Shown here one piece after another: positions 1,087 to 26,797 of a DNA stretch of 64,000 nucleotides. The position numbers were made by a program, and so were the translations under genes. Under the pieces are notes generated by a model, which ran no database searches, had not been told where the DNA came from, and saw only the letters and a program-made list of their open reading frames with translations. Source of the stretch: Methanosarcina flavescens (lineage in GTDB: Archaea > Halobacteriota > Methanosarcinia > Methanosarcinales > Methanosarcinaceae); NCBI RefSeq assembly GCF_001304615.2, contig NZ_CP032683.1:992001-1056000 (forward strand), written 5' to 3'. Numbering within the stretch: position 1 is the stretch's first letter; each line of letters begins with the position of its first letter.

Positions 1087-1271
1087 CATATGGCAAAAAC
1101 ATCAATGTAACCATAAGCGTCTGCCTCATACCGGAAAAATAAAGGAATTTTTCTGATCCAAAAGCATGTCATTTAAGTTTATGGATTATGATCTCTCCAC
1201 CGAGAGCGAGAAAATAAGAAAATCTGAGAAACTCGAACTGGCAACCAGTCAGGCTTAAAGAGGGGGTTATC

Positions 1272-2363
1272 ATGGAAAGAGACATAAACCTTTTTTCACA
1301 GTATAAGATGGGCGATCTCATACTGCCAAACCGTATAGTAATGGCGCCAATGACTCGCAACCGCGCAGGGGATGGCGATGTTCCGGTTCCTTTGATGGCT
1401 ACTTATTATGTGCAGCGAGCCTCTGCCGGCATGATTATCACCGAGGGTTCGCAGGTTAGCCCACAAGGAGTGGGCTACATTCATACACCAGGTATTTACT
1501 CTGCAGCACAGGTCGCTGGCTGGAAAAAGGTGACGGACGCCGTCCACCAGGCTGGCGGCAGGATTTTCATCCAGCTCTGGCACGTAGGGCGAATCTCTCA
1601 CCCCGACCTCCTGGGGGGCGCTCTGCCCGTTGCACCATCCGCGCTACCAGTCGAAGGTACTGTCCACACGCCAAGTGGAAAAAAGCCAATACCAGTACCC
1701 AGGGCTCTTGAAACCAACGAAATACCGGACATCGTCAGACAGTTCCGGCAGGCAGCAGAAAACGCCAAAACGGCGGGTTTCGATGGCGTAGAAATTCATG
1801 GCGCTAACGGCTACCTCCTTGACCAGTTCCTGCGGAGCGGATCTAACACGCGAACTGATGAGTACGGCGGTAGCCTTGAGAACCGTGCCCGTCTGCCTCT
1901 TGAAGTCGCAAAAGCTGTAATTGAGGTATGGGGTGGCAACCGTGTTGGCTATCGCATCTCTCCTCACAATACCGGTCATTCTATGTCGGATGCTAATCCA
2001 AGGGAAACATTTTCCTATCTCGCCAGAGAGCTTAACAAAATCGGCATGGGGTACCTTCATCTAATCGAGCCTATCGGAGGCAGGATGGGGTTTGTGCCAC
2101 CCAAAACACGGCTTGGGCCTACCCTGCGCAAAATTTTTGAAAGGACGCTAATACTGAACGGCGGCTATGATCTCCAGAGTGGAAACGAAGCTATTGCCAG
2201 CGGCGAAGCCGACCTGATATCTTTCGGGGTACCATTCCTCGCAAATCCTGACCTGCCGGAGCGTTTCAGGCAAAATGCGCCGCTAAACGAGCCAGACGTG
2301 GCTACATTCTACGTGGGCGGCGAGAAAGGCTACACGGACTATCCGACACTGACCGATAGATGA
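1272..2363 (+). CDS. Old Yellow Enzyme family alkene reductase (NemA/OYE-like)
   Basis: This 363-residue protein is a complete FMN-binding TIM barrel of the Old Yellow Enzyme family. Visible family marks are the N-terminal LPNRIVMAPMTRNRA, the FMN-contact segment IQLWHVGRISHP, the active-site block HGANGYLLDQFLRSGSNTR with the substrate-binding His and Asn and catalytic Tyr, and the following RTDEYGGSLENR. Such enzymes reduce activated C=C bonds, quinones, nitro compounds or N-ethylmaleimide with NAD(P)H. The ATG at 1272 is preceded by the purine-rich stretch AAAGAGGGGG, a good ribosome binding site. The sequence resembles bacterial NemA-type enzymes more than archaeal proteins known to me, so horizontal acquisition is likely. 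The physiological substrate is unknown. Confidence 0.93.
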   Translation: MERDINLFSQYKMGDLILPNRIVMAPMTRNRAGDGDVPVPLMATYYVQRASAGMIITEGSQVSPQGVGYIHTPGIYSAAQVAGWKKVTDAVHQAGGRIFIQLWHVGRISHPDLLGGALPVAPSALPVEGTVHTPSGKKPIPVPRALETNEIPDIVRQFRQAAENAKTAGFDGVEIHGANGYLLDQFLRSGSNTRTDEYGGSLENRARLPLEVAKAVIEVWGGNRVGYRISPHNTGHSMSDANPRETFSYLARELNKIGMGYLHLIEPIGGRMGFVPPKTRLGPTLRKIFERTLILNGGYDLQSGNEAIASGEADLISFGVPFLANPDLPERFRQNAPLNEPDVATFYVGGEKGYTDYPTLTDR

Positions 2364-2584
2364 TGATTAAAAAGGTTTTACTGTAAGTCTGCGAGGATGG
2401 ATAGTTTACAGGTTCTACATTAGCTGAAAAAAATCTCATATCTCGAAGATTTTGCACAACTGGTGCTGACCTTCGGACTGGTCTCAGAGCTTACTGAAAA
2501 TTTATCCCAACCCCGCAGACTATAGAGAACTCTCTTATTTTTCTTTTAACAAATTACATTGCTAATTTTACATCACATAGTGCC

Positions 2585-2896
2585 TTATGGAATACTAAAT
2601 ACGTTTTTCATTGTGCTCAGTTTTATCTCATCACACAATTCTTTCAGTTTCACAAAAGCTGCTTTAAATTCCGGCTGCTGCCGCCATGCCTGCACGCAAG
2701 CTGGAGTTTTCCACGGACCAAATGATATAAACCGGTTCTTTTGCTCTAAATCTTGCAACAGGACAGCTCCAGTGTTACACATCTCATTAGCCTTAGTCCA
2801 GTTAGCCAGATCCGTCCAGATTTTCAGAAATTCTTCCTCTTTCCCCTGTTTCACAGACCAGATCTCAGCTGCATATATTATTTCTTTATCCCCCAT
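2585..2896 (-). CDS. Antibiotic biosynthesis monooxygenase (ABM) domain protein
   Basis: A 103-residue single-domain protein of the dimeric alpha+beta barrel (ABM) type. It begins with an AAEIWSVKQGKEEEFLKIW strand-helix, and its middle RFISFGPWKTPACVQAWR is typical of small ABM proteins. These proteins act as cofactor-free monooxygenases, haem-degrading proteins or stress proteins, and the role here is open. The start is supported by GGGTGA seven bases upstream of the ATG. An AT-rich stretch containing ATATATAG around 2940-2960 could be its promoter. It faces the OYE gene tail to tail. Confidence 0.75.
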   Translation of the reverse strand: MGDKEIIYAAEIWSVKQGKEEEFLKIWTDLANWTKANEMCNTGAVLLQDLEQKNRFISFGPWKTPACVQAWRQQPEFKAAFVKLKELCDEIKLSTMKNVFSIP

Positions 2897-3215
2897 TGTC
2901 TTTCACCCGTCGAATTTATATTCCCCATATAGACTTGTGAAATATATAGTTATATACTTATGGTTATTATTTTGTTCCAAAATTATTTCGCATTTCCTGT
3001 TTGATTTTCCTGAAGCCTCTTAGTTATCAGATCTTTTTTTAATTACAGGGCTCATATTTAGTAATAATAGAAATAGACAGGGCCATAAGTTCCTTATGTT
3101 TCCGTGAAAGACAACCAGCTTCAAATACTTACCTTTATAATTCAAGAAAAGAATTATAATTGCTGCAATTTCTAAAAATCGGGAATGATGCCGTTTTCTA
3201 TCATTCATACTTTGA
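2897..3215. other. Intergenic region without recognised gene
   Basis: AT-rich DNA. The first 60 bases probably hold the promoter of the ABM gene, with TATA-like runs at 2940-2960. A minus-strand open frame (3020-3250) encodes a leucine/isoleucine-rich peptide but has no family resemblance and no ribosome binding site, so I do not call it. Confidence 0.4.
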
Positions 3216-3476
3216 TTATAGGTTTTGGAGCGAATTCGCAGATAACTCAAGCAATTTTGATAAAAAATAGGAGCCTGGGCGTAAGAATCTCTTAACGCCC
3301 CTGTTTACGCCGAAGTTCTTACGCCCTTCGCTCATCTTCCGGTTTTTGTCGATTTTCTCTTTCGCGAGCCTCGTGACAAGCTCAAGACCAGATTTGACTT
3401 CTTCGATGGGCTTCGTCTCGAACATGCCCGCGGCGACAGCCTTGGACCAGATTTCATACCCTACCCTGGTGCGGAC
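3216..3476 (-). pseudogene. Unrecognised gene fragment with coding-like composition
   Basis: A frame open from just after a TGA at 3477-3479 encodes about 86 residues, including an internal ATG at 3425. The first 60 residues (YEIWSKAVAAGMFETKPIEE, then a lysine-rich helix) use GC-rich third positions quite unlike the surrounding AT-rich DNA. This suggests the 3' remnant of a real gene whose front is gone. No family was recognised. It could instead be a short intact gene starting at 3425, but no ribosome binding site is seen there. Confidence 0.3.
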
Positions 3477-3491
3477 TCAATAATGAAAACA

Positions 3492-4556
3492 TCAACCACG
3501 TACTGATGGAGTTTCATTTTTGACTTTTATTTTAATGTCACCTTTTTTGGCATCACTTGAAAGCCCACTGTTTTCTTCAAACCATCTACAGTAATCCTCT
3601 GGGCATTGAGTTTCCGGGCATTGATGTATGTACTCCAGGACATCACTCATTTTTGCAGTAGCTAATGACACAGAAGTGTCCGCACTTCCGTAATAAATAC
3701 GGAGTTCATCATCTACAACAACCCATCCGCAGGGGAAAACAACATCATTAACATCCCCACTGCGTTCATACATTTCACGCGGTCCGAAAACCCAGCCTTC
3801 CGACCTGTGGAGCACTTTTCTGGGATCCTCAAGATCAAGAAGAGCTAGCCCAAGCCTATAACTTGCTTTAGCCGTTGTCTGGCGTACTCCATGATACATA
3901 ATTAGCCATCCATCAGGTGTACGTAGTGGCTGCGGGGATAATCCGATTTTTCGGGCGTCCCACCATCCACCTTCTCGAGCATATAGAAGAACTTCGTGTT
4001 CTCCCCAGTATTTCATATCTGGAGAAAAGGATATCCAGATATTTGCCTTTGCACCCGCCATACCAGATACAGGCCTGTGTAACATTGCCCATTTGCCTTT
4101 AAATCTTACAGGAAAAACAGCAGCATCTTTATTTTCAGGCGGCAGGGTAGCTCCTACCCGGTCAAAATTACGGAAATCTTCGGTAAATGCAAGAGCTGTT
4201 AATGGACCGGAATCAGAAAAAGCCGTATATGCTACAGCCCATTTTCCCATCTCGTCTATATAAGTTATACGCGGATCTTCAATGCCGTATATTTCTTCAG
4301 GGTAATTTACAGGGTCTGGCATAAAGGTTGGCTCTGGGTCAATTTCCCAGCCATCAATCCCGTTCTCACTCCTGGCTACTGTAAAGTGAGAAAAGCCTCG
4401 ATGATCCTCGACACGCACCATTAATAAAGTTGTTCCATTAACTATAGCTGCTGCAGGGTTAAATACTGAGTGAGCTCGATATGGCCAATCATCGACGGTA
4501 AGTATAGGGTTTTTAATGTTCCTCTGGAACAGCTCTCCATGGTCTTTCCACATCAT
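3492..4556 (-). CDS. GH130-family glycosidase / beta-mannoside phosphorylase-like protein
   Basis: The 354-residue protein is a five-bladed beta-propeller of the GH130 (PH1107-related) type. Typical segments are YRAHSVFNPAAAIVNG near residue 26, RVEDHRGFSHF near 48, YGIEDPRIT near 91, HRPVSG near 160, GGWWDARKIGLSPQP near 197 and VNDVVFPCGWVV near 270. The family phosphorolyses or hydrolyses beta-1,2- or beta-1,4-mannosides. Substrate specificity cannot be assigned from what is visible. The start ATG-ATG at 4556 follows GAGGTAG. Together with the debranching-type gene at the window start it suggests intracellular oligosaccharide turnover. Confidence 0.88.
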   Translation of the reverse strand: MMWKDHGELFQRNIKNPILTVDDWPYRAHSVFNPAAAIVNGTTLLMVRVEDHRGFSHFTVARSENGIDGWEIDPEPTFMPDPVNYPEEIYGIEDPRITYIDEMGKWAVAYTAFSDSGPLTALAFTEDFRNFDRVGATLPPENKDAAVFPVRFKGKWAMLHRPVSGMAGAKANIWISFSPDMKYWGEHEVLLYAREGGWWDARKIGLSPQPLRTPDGWLIMYHGVRQTTAKASYRLGLALLDLEDPRKVLHRSEGWVFGPREMYERSGDVNDVVFPCGWVVVDDELRIYYGSADTSVSLATAKMSDVLEYIHQCPETQCPEDYCRWFEENSGLSSDAKKGDIKIKVKNETPSVRG

Positions 4557-16225: not shown

Positions 16226-16945
16226 TCAGAAAAGCTCCAGAATGGCTTCAGGGCTTTCGAGTACAGTTATTCCTTGCAGTCCTTTTACAATCTCAACATT
16301 TCGCATGTCCACGTCCCTGACAAGGACTTCAACAGGCCCACCCTTGATAGCATTGTAGGGACAGAGTTCTTTGCAGGCCCCGCAGCCTTTGCATTTAAGG
16401 AGTTCTATCTGGTCCGTAACGCCATTTTTCTCGGAAATTGCTCCATGAGGACAGTTTTCCCGGGGAGGACAGGTCTCACAGTGCCTGCACTGTTTCCTAT
16501 CAATGTTGTAGGGCATTTCGGATATTATCGAACCTTCAATGTCCACAGGTACGATATAGACCGGGACCCTTCCTTTAACGGCCTGGGCAACGGCATTGGT
16601 TACAAGGGAATCGGCAATTCCGTAGGCGATTTTCGAGACCGTGTTTGAAGTTGCAGGCGTAACGAAGAGGGCATCATACCTGTCAAGGAGAAAACGCCCG
16701 ACTTTGGGGGAACTTGAGCCCTGCTCGCTTTCCCTGAAAACCTCTTCCAGGTAGTCCCCACCTGAGATTTTAACAAGCTTCTGCTCAAGCCCGTACATCC
16801 GGAGAACTTCTTCGGCTGCCCTTGAGACATATGTGTTTATGGAAAGTTCGGGGTTTCTGAGTTTAAGTTCTTTAAAGACCTGATAACTGCGGTCCAGGAA
16901 ATGACCTGCTCCTGTAATACCCCATGCAATTCTCTGAAAACTCAT
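16226..16945 (-). CDS. dmrX: Dihydromethanopterin reductase (acceptor), archaeoflavoprotein with ferredoxin domain
   Basis: The first 150 residues are an FMN-binding flavoprotein domain of the UbiX/archaeoflavoprotein type, with WGITGAGHFLD at the start and a LFVTPATSNTVSKIAYGIADSL segment. The last 90 residues carry two [4Fe-4S] motifs, CRHCETCPPRENCP and CKGCGACKELCP. This domain pair matches the Methanosarcina mazei DmrX enzyme, which reduces dihydromethanopterin to tetrahydromethanopterin, the last step in making the C1 carrier. It is the last gene of a minus-strand cluster with DUF447, CitG-like and marker-9 genes. The gene symbol rests on domain match and context, not on an alignment. 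Confidence 0.78.
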   Translation of the reverse strand: MSFQRIAWGITGAGHFLDRSYQVFKELKLRNPELSINTYVSRAAEEVLRMYGLEQKLVKISGGDYLEEVFRESEQGSSSPKVGRFLLDRYDALFVTPATSNTVSKIAYGIADSLVTNAVAQAVKGRVPVYIVPVDIEGSIISEMPYNIDRKQCRHCETCPPRENCPHGAISEKNGVTDQIELLKCKGCGACKELCPYNAIKGGPVEVLVRDVDMRNVEIVKGLQGITVLESPEAILELF

Positions 16946-16996
16946 GGAAAGAAGTCATGCCTGAGGGGGATAATATAATTTTCTAAAAAAGAGGGC

Positions 16997-17626
16997 TTAA
17001 AGCCCGAGTACTTCATAAAGCAATTTCATAGCTTTCTTTTCACCCTCGCCCCCGCATCTGGAAGCAAGGCTCTCGTAATGCATTATCCATTCGAGGTATT
17101 TTTTGTCTCCTGTAAGCTTATAGCGGGTTGCATGGACAGCAGCCTCAAGCACGGCATTAAAGCCGCGGTTAGGGGCCGGAATCGCTCTCCTGTTCGCCTC
17201 AAAAAAGCCCGCTCCAAGAGGAATGAGGTCGGATACCACAGTCTGTTCCGTATTCTTGATGTTGGTGCACCTGAAAGCCACCCAGGAAATGGCCGATTTA
17301 AGGACAGGAAACTTTTTCCCGCCAATGTCCACAAAATCGAATTCGGAAGATTCAATGTCAAAGAAAGTGGAACGTACAAGGAGCAGGGGGTCGTATACCA
17401 CGTTTGCTACAAGAACCCCTTCCCGAACCAGGTTTTCCCCGGTATGGCTGCCTTTGAAAATGCGGACAAAGATCTTCTGGTTTTTCCTTATAATCCCGAT
17501 AGGGGCCGCATTGGGAGTATCAAGCCCGGTACTTACGATTGTCTCAGAGATGCCTTCCAGAATCCCGTATTCGGAGAGGTCGATATCTGGTTTACAGCTA
17601 TCTCCGGATTCATCAAATTTCTTCAA
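16997..17626 (-). CDS. DUF447 family protein (flavin-reductase-like fold)
   Basis: A 209-residue protein matching DUF447. It opens with a GILEGISETIVSTG strand and NAAPIGIIRK, as in FMN-binding split barrels, and later carries the conserved NRGFNAVLEAAVHATRY helix. The function is unproven. Homologues occur beside H4MPT-related genes in methanogens and, as I recall, in C1-transfer clusters of methylotrophic bacteria. Its start overlaps the end of the CitG-like gene by four bases, so the two are probably translated together. Confidence 0.8.
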   Translation of the reverse strand: MKKFDESGDSCKPDIDLSEYGILEGISETIVSTGLDTPNAAPIGIIRKNQKIFVRIFKGSHTGENLVREGVLVANVVYDPLLLVRSTFFDIESSEFDFVDIGGKKFPVLKSAISWVAFRCTNIKNTEQTVVSDLIPLGAGFFEANRRAIPAPNRGFNAVLEAAVHATRYKLTGDKKYLEWIMHYESLASRCGGEGEKKAMKLLYEVLGL

Positions 17627-18663
17627 AAACGTAGTCCTCCAAGAAGGGCAATAAAAAGCCCTGCAATAATGATATCTGCCGTAGAGCCCGGGTTAATCCT
17701 TTTTTCCAGAAGCTCGGAATCAAATTCCTGTACATCAGGAAGAATTGAGGCAAAGTCTCCTGCCCTTTTTCCTGATATTTCCCAGTCTGAAAGAATCTTG
17801 CCTGCTCTGGAAGAGACATAATCCGCAGTTTCGGCATCAAACTTGGTCTGGATAAAGGTATCCCTATTCATTGAAAGCAGTTTCAGAAAAGTGTATACTA
17901 CGGCCTCATTGATTCCTGTGCCAGAGCAGATCGAAACCGACCCTCCTGTCAAAGCTTCTGCACTGCAGTTTCGTGCCTGCATGAACTCAAGAATGCTTTT
18001 TGCTCCCTCAAGGCAGCGCCCGAAACCTGTGGTCCACTCATTTGCGATCAGGTCATAGTCCCTGGCAATCTCCATAAGAGAGTAAAGGGTAATATTCTGT
18101 TTTCTTAGATCTGAAGTTGATTCAGGGTCTTTAAGGTCAAATTCCTCAACGCTGTTTACCCTGACCCCTGCATGTCCGAAAGCCCTGTAAAAATCAACGG
18201 CATCTTCACAGTCCGTTGACCGGACAAAGGAATGGGCACGGGAAGCGAGCTCCTCAAATTCTCCGATCTCAAGCCTGAAACCTGCTTTACCGCAGCTGGA
18301 CTGTTCCCTTGAAAGTTCGCCTGCAGCCATTGACAGAGGGATCAGGAGTAAAAAAGCCCCAAAATGCGTGTTTCCTCCCTGCTGCCAGGCAGAGCTTTCG
18401 TAAACTGCACTCCTGAGAAGCACCCCTATCCTTCCTGTGTTCTTTGCAGCAAGCTCAAGGACAGGGTAGACGGCAACCGAAGAGGCAACAAAATGCTCAA
18501 AACAGGTATCGGGATAGTTATGTTCCCTATCAACATTCCCTGGTTTCGGAGAAGCTGAGACTTCAAGCAGCATAGCAAGCTGTGCACAGCGCGCGATCAG
18601 GCTTGAGGTAAGAGATTCTCCTCCAGGTGTATGACAGGAAAAAACAGTGTTAGTGGGATTCAT
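17623..18663 (-). CDS. CitG/MdcB-like triphosphoribosyl-dephospho-CoA synthase family protein
   Basis: The 346-residue, all-helical protein matches the CitG family. Visible segments are ASPKPGNVDREHNYPDT near residue 36, HFVASSVAVYPVLELA near 56, GGNTHFGAFLLLIPLSMA near 95 and RINPGSTADIIIAGLF near the end. Bacterial CitG makes the prosthetic-group precursor of citrate lyase, but methanogens lack citrate lyase. The archaeal member probably transfers a phosphoribosyl-type group in cofactor synthesis, perhaps for methanopterin. The gene overlaps its upstream neighbour by 14 bases and its downstream one by four, which marks a tight operon. Confidence 0.8.
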   Translation of the reverse strand: MNPTNTVFSCHTPGGESLTSSLIARCAQLAMLLEVSASPKPGNVDREHNYPDTCFEHFVASSVAVYPVLELAAKNTGRIGVLLRSAVYESSAWQQGGNTHFGAFLLLIPLSMAAGELSREQSSCGKAGFRLEIGEFEELASRAHSFVRSTDCEDAVDFYRAFGHAGVRVNSVEEFDLKDPESTSDLRKQNITLYSLMEIARDYDLIANEWTTGFGRCLEGAKSILEFMQARNCSAEALTGGSVSICSGTGINEAVVYTFLKLLSMNRDTFIQTKFDAETADYVSSRAGKILSDWEISGKRAGDFASILPDVQEFDSELLEKRINPGSTADIIIAGLFIALLGGLRF

Positions 18664-19789
18664 TTACAGGAATCCTGGCGTGGTCAAGGACATATTTTGC
18701 CAGCTTTTCTTTAAGCTTCATGTACTCCGCGTCAGAGAGACCGATCGTATTCAGTACGCCGTCCCTGATCCAGCAGGGTTTTGTAATCTTACAGCACCAG
18801 ACAAGGCTGCCGAAACAGGTATCCTCTCCATACTCAAGCATGGTTCCTCTGGCAAACTCCATTTTTGTCCGGGCGAACTCTTCTGCGGTATATCCCAGCT
18901 TTTTGTATTTCCCATGCACAGGGCAATGTTTTACCGGAAGGCAGCAGAAAGCCAGAGCTCTGAAGTCCCCTTCACTGCAAACGTGTTTGGGAGCATTATA
19001 CCAGCCTATTGACTCCTGATACGAAGTGGCACCTTCTACGAGTTCCTTTATGAGATTGGGGTTTTCCATAGTCCCTCTTGCAACAGAGACCATGTCAGCT
19101 CCCCGGGAAAACATATCCTTTGCGGCGGCAAAATCAGTAACCGAATTGTTGCCTATAATAAAGAGCCTTGTAGCGTCCCTGTAATTTGAAATTGCATCAA
19201 GGTCTGCCCCAAAACCTTCGAGCATGGCATCCACATGGATAATATCAGCTCCAGCCTTATCAATAAGCCTGGCAAGTTTGACATCATTTACTATATTTGC
19301 CCGCACCTTCACAGAAAGCACGACTCCGGTTTCTTTTATTGCCTTTATCCAGGCAGAGAGTCTTGGAAGGTCACGCAAAAGGGCTTCTCCCATACCCGCT
19401 TTAAGCATTTCAGGCTGCTTGCAGTGAGCGTTTAATTCAAGAATTGCCCCTTCTTCCTTTACAAGTTTTGCAGCTTCAATCAGGGGTTCAAGGGTGGTGC
19501 TTCTTACGTTTACAGCAACCGCACTTCCAGAGTTTACCGCCCGAATTTCCCTTTTTATAAGCTCCAGAGGTTCATCGGAAATGAACTCTTTCCTACCCCG
19601 AGATGTAAGGTCTGATGCAACTTCCATAGATCCTTTATCAAGATTGAAGGCTCCAAGCACTACGAGCCCGGCATAGCCTGCATACTGGTTGGCAAAAGCG
19701 CTGTCAACAATTCCGGCCATTGGCGCCAGTGCGATAGGGTTTCTAAAACGGACATAACCAGCATGCAAATCAAATAGACAATCACTCAT
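18650..19789 (-). CDS. Methanogenesis marker 9 protein, dihydrouridine-synthase-like TIM barrel
   Basis: Residues 1-260 form a FMN-type TIM barrel like dihydrouridine synthases: NPIALAPMAGIVDSAF at the start, NAHCKQPEM in the middle and ADMVSVARGTMENP near 250. The C-terminal 115 residues are Cys-rich, with CSEGDFRALAFCCLPVKHCPVHGKY then CFGSLVWCCKITKPC, which is the methanogenesis marker 9 signature. This protein is found in methanogens, but its reaction is not established. It is the promoter-proximal gene of the cluster ending in dmrX, so a role in methanopterin synthesis or repair is a reasonable inference. RNA modification is the alternative. Confidence 0.82.
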   Translation of the reverse strand: MSDCLFDLHAGYVRFRNPIALAPMAGIVDSAFANQYAGYAGLVVLGAFNLDKGSMEVASDLTSRGRKEFISDEPLELIKREIRAVNSGSAVAVNVRSTTLEPLIEAAKLVKEEGAILELNAHCKQPEMLKAGMGEALLRDLPRLSAWIKAIKETGVVLSVKVRANIVNDVKLARLIDKAGADIIHVDAMLEGFGADLDAISNYRDATRLFIIGNNSVTDFAAAKDMFSRGADMVSVARGTMENPNLIKELVEGATSYQESIGWYNAPKHVCSEGDFRALAFCCLPVKHCPVHGKYKKLGYTAEEFARTKMEFARGTMLEYGEDTCFGSLVWCCKITKPCWIRDGVLNTIGLSDAEYMKLKEKLAKYVLDHARIPVNESH

Positions 19790-20174: not shown

Positions 20175-20543
20175 GTGCGAGAGAGGCTGGACGGCTGCCG
20201 GACCTTCAGGTCTGAGGAAAGTCTCCCCACCGCTCCGGACACACGAACGTCTGTAAAGGATGTCGGGCGAGAGCCCGGGCCCTGGCACAGAAACGAGAAC
20301 CATCCCCTGCAAATGCGATGATGCCATAAGCTGAGGTCACAGGGAGAGTGGATGAAACGGCGAATCCTCGTGGGTGCAAGTTGGAAATCGGGAAGAACGA
20401 GCAGTCCGGAATCGCCCGATTGGTTTTGGTAACGCTTAGCCGAATGCCGTCGCTGCAAGAGTCTTCAGGGACCATTTCCCTCACTGATGGGTGACAGGAA
20501 ATCTTTGCAGCAACAGAAGGGAGCTTACGTGCCTCACTCGCAT
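20175..20543 (+). ncRNA. rnpB: RNase P RNA, archaeal type A
   Basis: The catalytic RNA of RNase P, which removes 5' leaders from pre-tRNAs. The universal core elements are visible in order: GAGGAAAGTC with CCCCAC near 20213, CACAGAAACGAGAA near 20285, GGTGCAAG near 20372 and GTGACAGGAAA near 20492. The ends are set by the P1 helix: GTGCGAGAGAGGC at 20175-20187 pairs with GCCTCACTCGCAT at 20531-20543 with one mismatch and one G-T pair. The resulting length, 369 bases, agrees with known Methanosarcina RNase P RNAs. Exact mature ends may differ by a few bases. Confidence 0.93.
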
Positions 20544-23376: not shown

Positions 23377-23997
23377 TTAATCCTTAAAAGTTTCAAAAAC
23401 ATTCAAAACCTTCTGGTAATCCACCTCCGTATCGAAGCAGCCGTCCCTTTCCATAGGAATACCGTAGCTTACAACGTTTTTTCCTTTGAGGGCACGCATT
23501 ACCTTGTTGATTTCGTAATCGCAGGCAATCATAAGGACACCGTCGGCAGCTTCCATTTTAAGGATATTCTTTACAAAGGAGGAACCTGTAACAATGAACA
23601 ATTTATACCCATATTTCTCAGCGTCTTTTTTCAGTTGAGTAAAGACGCATTTCCCGCAGGATTTACACTGTATCCCTGTCTGAGTAGAATAAGCCGGGCA
23701 GTCAAGACTCCGCATGCAGTGTGGAGCCAGAAGAATCCTCTTTTTTGTTTTTGCAAAATTAGACTTATAGGCTAGGTTTTTCAGAGATGCCATCCACTTA
23801 TCCAGAATTCGTATATCGGAAAATTTAAGGAAAAGTTGTCTTAAAGGCAAATAAAAGAAATCAAGCACATTTGCAAAAAAACCTGCAAGGTAAATGTTTC
23901 CCGTCAGACTTCGTCTGCTGGCAAACAGAGCTATACCAGAAAGAAGAAGGGAGGCAACTATAAAAAAGAAGAGAACCTTCCCGATGATATTATACAT
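23377..23997 (-). CDS. DUF116 membrane-anchored cysteine-rich protein (copy 2)
   Basis: Residues 1-60 contain two hydrophobic segments. The cytoplasmic-type remainder has the DUF116 cysteine pattern: LLAPHCMRSLDCPA near 91, then CKSCGKCVF near 112, DGVLMIACDYEI near 153 and a final RDGCFDTEVD. Eight conserved Cys suggest metal or iron-sulfur binding. The function is unknown. Its start overlaps the end of the upstream DUF116 gene by eight bases. Confidence 0.82.
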   Translation of the reverse strand: MYNIIGKVLFFFIVASLLLSGIALFASRRSLTGNIYLAGFFANVLDFFYLPLRQLFLKFSDIRILDKWMASLKNLAYKSNFAKTKKRILLAPHCMRSLDCPAYSTQTGIQCKSCGKCVFTQLKKDAEKYGYKLFIVTGSSFVKNILKMEAADGVLMIACDYEINKVMRALKGKNVVSYGIPMERDGCFDTEVDYQKVLNVFETFKD

Positions 23998-24625
23998 TAC
24001 ACATCTCCATTTTTTGAATTATTTCCTCAACATTGGCCTCAGTATTAAAGCATCCATCCCTTAGAAGAAGAACACCTTGCACAGGAACAAACGATACAGC
24101 CTGCATATTTTCGGAAAGCTCATGATAACAGGCAACTCCCAGGCAGGCTTCAGGCCTGTGCTCCTTAAAGATCTTTTTGACAAAACTTCCTCCAGGCACT
24201 ACAAAAACCTTGAAACTGCACCTGTCAGCAGCTTCGGAGATTTTTGAGATGTCACATAGTCCACACCGTTTACATTCATACCCGTGTACGGGATCACACC
24301 TTGCTTTACAGTTTGGATGGCGCAGACATTGAGGAAGGAGCAGAATTTTCTTACCTTTAACATGCTGGAAATCATCATGCATAACAGCGTTTCGGACATC
24401 AATGAGGATATCGTCAACAAGAGTATCCCTTATCCTGAAAACTTTACAGAGCCATTTTGCAGGGGAATAGAAAAGATAAAGCGTAAACAACACAAATCCT
24501 GGAAAAATAATCCTGTGCTTTTTGAACGAATATGCCCCAATAATCAGGGCAATCCCGGTTCCTACAAGTGCAAATAATACCAGGATTATAAATATTTTCC
24601 CTAAAAATTCGTAAGGCATATACAT
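23990..24625 (-). CDS. DUF116 membrane-anchored cysteine-rich protein (copy 1)
   Basis: A 211-residue paralogue of the next gene, with the same layout: two N-terminal membrane segments, then LLLPQCLRHPNCKARC, CKRCGLCDIS, a GGSFVKKIFKEHRPEA segment, GVACYHEL and RDGCFNTEA. The Cys positions are nearly superimposable on the second copy. The overlap of the two genes and shared domains suggest a hetero-complex or a recent tandem duplication. They follow hdrED on the same strand after a 155-base gap, so a shared transcript is possible but not shown. Confidence 0.82.
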   Translation of the reverse strand: MYMPYEFLGKIFIILVLFALVGTGIALIIGAYSFKKHRIIFPGFVLFTLYLFYSPAKWLCKVFRIRDTLVDDILIDVRNAVMHDDFQHVKGKKILLLPQCLRHPNCKARCDPVHGYECKRCGLCDISKISEAADRCSFKVFVVPGGSFVKKIFKEHRPEACLGVACYHELSENMQAVSFVPVQGVLLLRDGCFNTEANVEEIIQKMEMCNV

Positions 24626-24780: not shown

Positions 24781-26010
24781 TTATTTAGTCTCAAGGCCCA
24801 GAGCCTCTGCAACCAGTTCAATGACGTCCTCGACAACCATGTCAACTTTGAGTGAGTCCCGACCATCCATCAGGTTTCTCTTACAGAATGGGCAGCAGCT
24901 GGAAAGGATATCTGCATCGGTTGCAACAGCATCCTTAACCCTGGATTCTGCGACTGCCATAGCAAGATCAGGGAGACCTGCCTTTACACCACCGCCAGCT
25001 CCACAGCAGCGCTGGAATTCTTTTATTCTGTCCATCTCGACAAACTTAACACCAGGAATGTGGGATAGCACATATCTGGGGGCATCAAAGACGCCTACGT
25101 GACGTCCCAGGTGGCAGGGGTCGTGGTAAGTAACTGTCTTGTTAATAGACTTCTCCCACTTAATTTTATCTTCTTTTATCAGGCCTGCAAGGAACTCTGA
25201 AACGTGGACAACCTCAAAAGGCAGTTCTTTGCCGAGAAGCCGGGGCCAGTCGACCTTTGCAGCGCGGAAACAGCCTGCACATGCAAAAAGAACCTTCTTG
25301 GCACCCTTCTTCTGGATAGCTTCAACATTGTGTTTCGCAAGTTCAAGGGGCACATTATTGATATGTGCCTGACCCGTCCTGATAAGGGCTGAGCCACAGC
25401 ACCATTCATCTTCACCAAGCATGGCGAACTTAATACCCAGCTTGTTGAGCACACGTGAGGTCGCATAGGCTAAAGCGAGCTGATTATATCCAGCAGTACA
25501 GCCGGTAAAATAGACAATATCGGCTTTGTCTTCAATTTTCACATCTGGTGGAACCCAGGCAAGCCTGTCTTTCTGATCCTTCATGTAAGGGTTGCGGTAC
25601 TGCCCAATAAGTTTTGGGAACATGTTCTGCTTCCCATAAGGACCTATACCTTTCTTTACGAGGTTTGCCCTCATAGATTCCCAGAGTTCCACGGTATTAA
25701 TGCCTGCTTCACAGACAGTTGAACAGATACCGCAGGTGGTACAGCCGTGTACATCATCTTTGAATTCTTCAAGCTCTGAGCTTGGGATTTCTTGCGGACC
25801 AAAGAGCCTTGCCTTAAGTCCGTAAGACTTGTTCATGTACTGCCTCCAGCGCAGGATCTTGTCTCTAGGGGCTAATCCTGGCTTCTCGCCGGAAGCGGCA
25901 TAAGTTGGACACCATTTTACACATTCACCGCAGCGAACACAGGAATCAAGTTCCATAAGCTGGACTGCAGTGAGATTCTTCGTATCGATTGAAGGGTTAC
26001 GTTTTGCCAT
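24781..26010 (-). CDS. hdrD: CoB-CoM heterodisulfide reductase subunit D
   Basis: The catalytic iron-sulfur subunit of the membrane-bound reductase that splits CoM-S-S-CoB in the last step of methanogenesis. From the start [12 protein letters not shown] the N-terminal region has two [4Fe-4S] motifs, [12 protein letters not shown] and [12 protein letters not shown]. Two CCG domains follow, with [34 protein letters not shown] and CCPFCKRN; these bind the special active-site cluster. The ATG at 26010 follows AAAGGAGGCG, so it is preferred over the longer frame beginning at 26046. The sequence is the one I know from Methanosarcina HdrD. hdrE lies four bases upstream. Confidence 0.97.
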
Positions 26011-26014
26011 TTTA

Positions 26015-26797
26015 TTATTCGCCTCCTTTATTTGCAAGTAATGCAAGCGGTATGGCGATTATGTGAATATATTTACTGTATGGAATAAATGCAATACAGA
26101 AGAGCAGGGAAATTACGGAATGGAAGAGTGCTGCCGGCGGTGCCAGTGATGGGTCAAGCCCGAAGCTCCAGATAAATCCTGTTCGGATTCCGTCGGCAAG
26201 AAAACCGGAAATAGTAACTAAGAAAACTACTCCGATCAAAACCCAATCATACATAATGGAAGCTTCCCTGACTTCAGAGACAAACAGTCTTCTTACTATT
26301 GCTATAAGAACCCCTATAAGCAGGATATACCCGAAGATATAGTTCGGAATGGAGAGCCATTCTCTAAACACGTAGGGGGTGAACGGGAGTTCAATTCCGA
26401 TCATATGAGACATTTCAACTGAAAACATGAGTCCTGATAGAGCAAAGAGGGTCATCCAGCCCGCGAAAATCGTGAAGTGCATGAACCAGCGAAGAGGGCT
26501 TCTCTTGAGAATTCTCCTCTGGAAAAGGATATCAAGAATGAGAATCTCAAGGATAGGCTTTCCATGACCGTGGGAAGATTCTTCAGTCACCTGTTTCCAC
26601 CAGGTCTTTAAGAATGTGATTGCACTTCCTCTTTTTCCGTCCTGAGGCTCAAGAGCGTAACCTGTGGCTCCTGACCCCCATTTCTGCATGGTAATAATCA
26701 TACCATATAAGAAAATCACAATGGCTATTGCGCTAATTATCATCATCTGGACAAACGTGATTCTCAGTGCGTCCGTGAGCCCAGAAAAATAAACCAT
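26015..26797 (-). CDS. hdrE: CoB-CoM heterodisulfide reductase subunit E, cytochrome b
   Basis: A 260-residue membrane protein with five hydrophobic helices. It is the dihaem cytochrome b that takes electrons from reduced methanophenazine and passes them to HdrD, with proton translocation. Conserved His residues lie in the helices, for example [11 protein letters not shown] near 105 and FHSVISLL near 228. The gene precedes hdrD by four bases, the standard order. Upstream DNA contains a TATA-like TTTAAATATAA on the minus strand around 26973, about 180 bases before the start, which would give a long leader. Confidence 0.96.

Follow-up and report, generated by a model that had tools for sequence, protein, structure and literature searches.

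One-carbon units in methanogenesis, and in much of methanol oxidation, are carried by methanopterin, and several steps in the building of its side chain are without a known enzyme. Could four neighbouring minus-strand genes of Methanosarcina flavescens supply some of the missing proteins? The genes lie in a window of 64,000 nucleotides, positions 992001-1056000 of one 3.28-Mb contig. They encode marker 9, which has a barrel of the Dus type (18650-19789, 379 residues); a CitG-like protein of the archaeal and methylotroph, or Orf7-type, subfamily (17623-18663, 346 residues); a DUF447 protein (16997-17626, 209 residues); and DmrX, the dihydromethanopterin reductase (acceptor) (16226-16945, 239 residues). 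Three of the genes start with ATG, and the DUF447 gene starts with TTG. An earlier note on this DNA had read the four as a probable unit that supplies or repairs tetrahydromethanopterin (H4MPT).

We find that, in archaea and bacteria alike, MptG, the CitG-like protein and DUF447 occur together, move together and disappear together. The part of the cluster that encodes the CitG-like and DUF447 proteins belongs to methanopterin chemistry. The cluster as a whole is quite probably a methanopterin assembly unit. Its conserved heart would be a ribosyl side-chain module of MptG, CitG-like and DUF447 proteins, for which we put forward the individual reactions as predictions.

The CitG-like and DUF447 genes travel with MptG

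Public genomes were scanned with an alignment of bacterial CitG-like proteins, and the 80 nearest loci were kept, all of them proteobacterial and many from methylotrophs. All 80 lie in clusters for H4MPT and methylofuran (MYFR), with mch beside 77, MyfB beside 78 and MptG beside 73. Since the query was drawn from such clusters, these counts show that this subfamily is confined to H4MPT/MYFR clusters, and they do not speak for all CitG proteins. DUF447 is present in each of the 40 genomes tested from this set. The bacterial test for CitG-like or DUF447 genes without MptG covered plasmids: among 72,556, compared by accession, MptG is carried by every one of the 35 that match DUF447 strongly, many of these plasmids being related to one another.

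The clusters themselves place the two genes among enzymes of H4MPT metabolism. On the Phyllobacterium plasmid pT1293c, mch and the gene of a RimK-type ligase precede the CitG-like gene, and DUF447 lies beside a protein like dihydropteroate synthase (DHPS) and an AfpA-type flavoprotein. The same stretch also holds MptG, MtdB, fhc and MfnB, and a cluster in Azospirillum is similar. For DmrX and early methylotroph genetics our background rests on three sources (PMC6193120, PMC8141765, PMC3615186). The methylotroph gene orders given there are mch-orf5-orf7-fae and orf19-orf20-afpA-orf21-orf22 (PMC3615186). Matched by gene order rather than by a stated annotation, the CitG-like gene would be orf7 and the DUF447 gene orf19 or orf20, probably orf20. 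The association of both with the H4MPT cluster is already known in methylotrophs. The methylotroph cluster (orf5, orf7, orf9, orf17, orf19-22, afpA, mptG, mch) and the archaeal units are alike in joining CitG-like and DUF447 proteins with MptG and a flavoprotein of the AfpA/DmrX type. They differ in that archaea place the CitG-like and DUF447 genes together, add a Dus-like barrel and often DmrX, and keep MptG elsewhere, whereas the bacteria have no Dus-like gene.

For the archaeal side we surveyed 130 genomes of the same phylum, in which the absence of a gene is unreliable wherever a genome is incomplete. Matches were obtained for CitG in 123 genomes, for DUF447 in 122, for Mch in 129 and for MptG, the synthase of ribofuranosylaminobenzene 5'-phosphate (RFAP), in 126. 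Above their cut-offs, the marker 9 tail occurs in 52 of the 130 and DmrX in 31; a Dus-like barrel is matched in 80. We inspected 40 loci. CitG-like and DUF447 genes adjoin in nearly all of them, a Dus-like barrel lies directly upstream of the pair in methanogens and haloarchaea, and most of the archaeal loci repeat the order marker 9/Dus-like, CitG, DUF447. DmrX adjoins DUF447 in six families (f1, f3, f11, f13, f17 and f18). Because the gene order recurs and DmrX returns beside DUF447 in six families, the linkage is more than chance. The tie to H4MPT biosynthesis proposed by the earlier note thus holds for the CitG-like and DUF447 proteins, through the methylotroph clusters, the co-occurrence with MptG in archaea and the repeated adjacency of DmrX.

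In the genome of M. flavescens an intact MptG gene lies outside the window, at C1:1476063-1477004. A second copy is interrupted by an IS200/IS605-like insertion (L175, C1:1103000-1108000, 1245-3943) that encodes a TnpA-like protein of 134 residues and a TnpB-like protein of 401 residues. Two related genomes hold full-length MptG in two copies.

Haloarchaea keep, and lose, the three genes as a set

Haloarchaea are curated as tetrahydrofolate users without methanopterin-specific enzymes, and their MptG homologue HVO_2628 as probably not making RFAP (PMC8305020, PMC4500146). We counted gene losses in 222 genomes of Halobacteria, taking only those at least 90% complete. The genomes were judged to be haloarchaeal by how they group, by their synteny with Natrinema and by comparison with a named control, Haloferax volcanii, which itself gives matches for CitG, DUF447, MptG and Mch and none for marker 9. 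CitG and the MptG family are each present in 217 of the 222, and DUF447 is kept in almost every genome. Four genomes lack both CitG and MptG (G008, G060, G119 and G326), one lacks CitG alone (G328) and one MptG alone (G230). Compared in this way, MptG and CitG share four of their five absences each (Fisher p=2.5e-7 by genome, 7e-5 by genus). Three of the four genomes (G008, G060 and G119) have also lost DUF447. Other haloarchaea, such as Natrinema thermotolerans, have the order CofD-DusL-CitG-DUF447-S17e-asd, and in these three CofD-DusL is followed directly by asd. As the run CofD-DusL-asd is intact apart from the missing genes, an assembly gap is excluded. Because the MptG homologue is also kept in haloarchaea, and disappears from them in step with CitG, the pattern speaks for an RFAP-type branch that has been retained rather than for an unrelated role.

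The earlier note had expected the families to follow H4MPT use and had taken wide occurrence without H4MPT as grounds to abandon the link. The CitG-like and DUF447 proteins do follow MptG. They do not follow H4MPT use as annotated, since haloarchaea keep both, but they do so along with an MptG homologue that is co-lost with CitG.

In two haloarchaea the surroundings of these genes give a hint of their function. In one genome (G331) both CitG genes lie in Mer-CitG-DUF447-MptG operons (L168, L169) with two methionine synthase genes alongside. Mer scores 433 bits here (cut-off 276) and methionine synthase 512 (cut-off 406), and CitG and DUF447 pass their Pfam cut-offs. In a tree these operon copies of CitG nest inside the haloarchaeal clade. 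A plasmid of Halobellus limi (L166) carries npdG, then Mer-DUF447-MptG-MetE-MetE. We therefore propose, tentatively and at less than even confidence, that the MptG, CitG-like and DUF447 proteins of haloarchaea together produce a second pterin, this one derived from RFAP, or else an analogue without a pterin. It would serve as a methyl carrier between the F420-dependent Mer and a core methionine synthase, the three genes persisting without DmrX or the H4MPT-type DHPS; as part of the same proposal, the CitG-like and DUF447 proteins would carry out two side-chain steps of H4MPT that lack an assigned enzyme.

Several observations count against this proposal, or against the module as a whole. About three independent lineages underlie the co-loss. 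Mch stays where CitG, DUF447 and MptG are lost, so haloarchaeal Mch is independent of the module. The haloarchaeal MptG passes the TIGR00144 cut-off for the subfamily only (130 against 113.5) and falls below that for the equivalog (155 against 328). No H4MPT-type DHPS-related protein passes its cut-off in any of the 222 genomes, and DmrX was not found in haloarchaea, so that the haloarchaeal product cannot be ordinary H4MPT. Finally, CitG-like proteins lack the GxRGEA loop of CitG, and their donor or acceptor may therefore differ.

Of the rival readings, the strongest is that the haloarchaeal CitG-like, DUF447 and MptG proteins have been re-purposed for a product other than a one-carbon carrier, with only the methanogen and methylotroph members acting on H4MPT. 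The published view of folate use without methanopterin enzymes (PMC8305020, PMC4500146), the lack of an H4MPT-type DHPS and the independence of Mch all agree with it. We consider it unlikely all the same, because two haloarchaeal genomes have operons that join the module to Mer and methionine synthase, which is one-carbon chemistry.

One haloarchaeal-class genome holds an extra, methanogen-like MptG (L167, G287:C1:131130-131960, 288 bits) away from CitG and DUF447. CofD, of F420 biosynthesis, is usually directly upstream of Dus-like-CitG-DUF447 in haloarchaea and in some methanogen-related lineages (L022-L033, L050, L051, L062), and in two of these loci, L050 and L051, it precedes DmrX as well.

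The position of CofD raises a second rival, in which the CitG-like and DUF447 proteins serve another redox cofactor, most likely F420. CofD also adjoins CitG in L037 and lies near it in L039, L041 and L061, the Mer of the haloarchaeal operon is F420-dependent, and npdG is nearby in Halobellus. We regard this reading as improbable: in bacterial clusters the CitG-like and DUF447 genes stand alongside MptG, mch and fhc, the clusters of Phyllobacterium and Azospirillum have no annotated CofD, and CofD and the Dus-like gene persist where CitG, DUF447 and MptG are lost.

Predicted roles of the CitG-like and DUF447 proteins

The window protein matches the CitG family PF01874 with 250 bits. CitG-like proteins conserve K-P-G-N-V, N-T-x-x-G, D and N-P-G-x-x-A-D, and of these residues K-P-G, N, D and P-G-A-D are shared with CitG, though the GxRGEA loop is not. 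They resemble CitG and MdcB, the ATP:dephospho-coenzyme A triphosphoribosyltransferases, in belonging to one Pfam family, in having an all-alpha fold and in the residues of the core motifs. They differ in missing the family cut-offs, in the absent loop, in their neighbours and in forming a separate branch. The window protein stays far below all CitG/MdcB equivalog cut-offs (51 against 272, 42 against 280, 37 against 477 and 32 against 282 bits). In a tree, CitG-like proteins stand apart from citrate-lyase CitG on a fully supported branch of 4.3 changes per column. No genes for CitX, MdcG or a carrier protein were found near the CitG-like gene in the window or in the Phyllobacterium and Azospirillum clusters; in E. 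coli, by comparison, the order is citCDEFXG. A search with foldseek returned only 3H9P, an uncharacterised protein of Archaeoglobus fulgidus, so the structure gives no mechanistic hint.

CitG and MdcB, with CitX and MdcG, build the phosphoribosyl-dephospho-coenzyme A group of carrier proteins (PMC5534430). That the CitG-like protein is itself a true CitG or MdcB, making such a group for an unknown acyl carrier protein, would suit the common Pfam family and core residues. We rejected this candidate on the missed cut-offs, the missing GxRGEA loop and the separate branch, and with no citX, citD or mdc genes nearby we consider it very improbable.

The chemistry of CitG is nevertheless a useful guide. 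The enzyme takes the ribose triphosphate of ATP and displaces adenine, which turns a beta-linked donor into an alpha-ribosidic bond. Methanopterin has an alpha-linked ribofuranose 5-phosphate on ribitol, esterified to 2-hydroxyglutarate, and the bacterial form has neither the phosphate nor the hydroxyglutarate (PMC8141765). If the displacement inverts, a beta-linked donor such as ATP leads to the alpha bond, whereas phosphoribosyl pyrophosphate with one inversion would lead to the beta, so CitG-type chemistry fits the stereochemistry. By this analogy, the ribosyl transfer suggested by the earlier note would be chemically sensible. A triphosphate product would, moreover, be activated for a later phosphodiester, as in the pair of CitG and CitX. 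We predict ribosyl transfer for the CitG-like protein by this analogy, at close to even confidence.

DUF447 is recognised in the window protein by both halves of the family (DUF447_N 92 bits, DUF447_C 72 bits), and the alignment has no conserved stretch that could serve as a search pattern. Homologues with solved structures were found by sequence (2IML, 2NR4, 2PTF and 3B5M), and these we take to be FMN-binding proteins of the FMN (flavin mononucleotide) split-barrel type. The conversion of the furanose of RFAP to deoxyribitol is a reductive step without an assigned enzyme, and for this reason we propose DUF447, a predicted FMN-dependent reductase, for it. The assignment is a cautious one, and we think it somewhat less probable than ribosyl transfer by the CitG-like protein.

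The pathway would then run as follows. MptG, encoded elsewhere in this genome, would make the aryl riboside phosphate. DUF447, with its flavin fold, would reduce the furanose of this compound to deoxyribitol. The CitG-like protein may attach a second, alpha-linked ribose 5-phosphate, or 5-triphosphate, to this ribitol, taking it from a nucleotide donor in a displacement like that of CitG on dephospho-coenzyme A. DmrX would carry out the final reduction, that of the finished dihydropterin.

Marker 9 is a separable neighbour

The window's marker 9 passes TIGR03277 through its C-terminal Cys-rich domain (180.5 bits, cut-off 96.2), has a Pfam match to Dus and scores 165 bits with TIGR00736. Its structural model (predicted local distance difference test, pLDDT, 93) has an FMN barrel of the Dus/DPD/DHODH type over residues 1-250 or so, its best folds in the PDB being Dus, DPD and DHODH, followed by a domain at about 262-369 with eight conserved cysteines. 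The barrel keeps its cysteine in AHC[RK]Q. It resembles Dus and dihydropyrimidine dehydrogenase barrels in fold and in having a cysteine at the Dus-type motif position, but it falls short of the DusB equivalog cut-off (66.6 against 293.3 bits), and the methanogen proteins add the eight-Cys domain.

The earlier note had given marker 9 a part in supplying or repairing H4MPT. This does not hold as a general rule. No Dus-like barrel was found at any of the 80 bacterial CitG-like loci, and many archaeal genomes with MptG and Mch lack one. In four lineages (f6, f7, f13 and f17) CitG and MptG are present, DUF447 mostly so, and the marker 9 tail is absent; no Dus-like match was found in those of them covered by the barrel search. 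The barrel stays, moreover, where the set of CitG, DUF447 and MptG is lost. In Archaeoglobus-like genomes (f5) it lies elsewhere, and in haloarchaea it has no Cys-rich tail. The tail, for its part, is found only in methanogen-type genomes: it stands alone in a short frame in f8 and f16, and in f2 (L043) it is intact behind a truncated barrel without the AHCRQ motif. Barrel and tail are therefore separable domains. We discarded the reading of marker 9 as an obligate gene of H4MPT because it is absent from the bacterial clusters and from MptG-bearing archaea, and its tail is of methanogen type only. Rather than a general enzyme of H4MPT, it is a methanogen neighbour: an FMN barrel that adjoins the unit in methanogens and haloarchaea and would be dispensable for it, with a tail that may serve a methanogen-specific purpose.

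DmrX and the layout of the cluster

A recheck of the open reading frames reproduced the layout given by the earlier note exactly, with overlaps of 14 and 4 bases and then a gap of 51 bases ahead of DmrX, and profile scores upheld the family names of all four proteins (marker 9 with a Dus-like barrel, CitG, DUF447 N and C, DmrX). The TTG start of DUF447 is preceded by GGAGG and overlaps the CitG stop by 4 bases, and so the two genes look translationally coupled. A weak, terminator-like hairpin with a T run lies on the minus strand at 16993-17005, at the end of DUF447 and ahead of dmrX. Such sites are not in excess (3 in the region against 5.7 expected in shuffled sequence). This one is nonetheless well placed, making DmrX the least tightly joined of the four genes, and it is a weak sign that dmrX may be partly uncoupled from the other three.

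DmrX is a flavoprotein with a 4Fe-4S region. It scores 414 bits with TIGR02700 (cut-off 251, residues 5-239) and has Pfam matches to Flavoprotein and Fer4. The AfpA/DmrB reductases are comparable, in that the window DmrX passes the TIGR02700 cut-off and the bacterial form of the module has AfpA next to it; DmrX differs in being missing from most of the Halobacteriota tested, haloarchaea included. In f2 and f10 it lies away from DUF447, and most genomes of the phylum have no DmrX above the cut-off. A species of the same genus (G120) has dmrX broken by a stop or frame change, at C139:12519-13222 and not beside DUF447. That the four genes merely adjoin without a common function would agree with a DmrX that most genomes of the phylum lack or keep elsewhere, and that is broken or on another contig in G120, yet the recurrent order across families and the joint loss of MptG, CitG and DUF447 make it highly unlikely for CitG-like and DUF447, and less so for marker 9.

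The archaeal RNase P RNA (20179-20539, plus strand; Rfam RF00373, 197 bits) lies upstream of the marker 9 gene and on the other strand. Genes of the heterodisulfide reductase type are at 24781-26797 in the window, adjoined by two neighbouring DUF116 proteins (23377-24625, minus strand).

Meaning for methanopterin biosynthesis

The data yield a short candidate list for methanopterin steps without a known enzyme, the CitG-like protein for the second ribose and DUF447 for the reduction, and both may be tested in genetically tractable hosts. They also call into question the published claim that haloarchaea are without methanopterin-specific enzymes, as MptG, CitG-like and DUF447 are kept there as a co-inherited set, twice beside Mer and methionine synthase.

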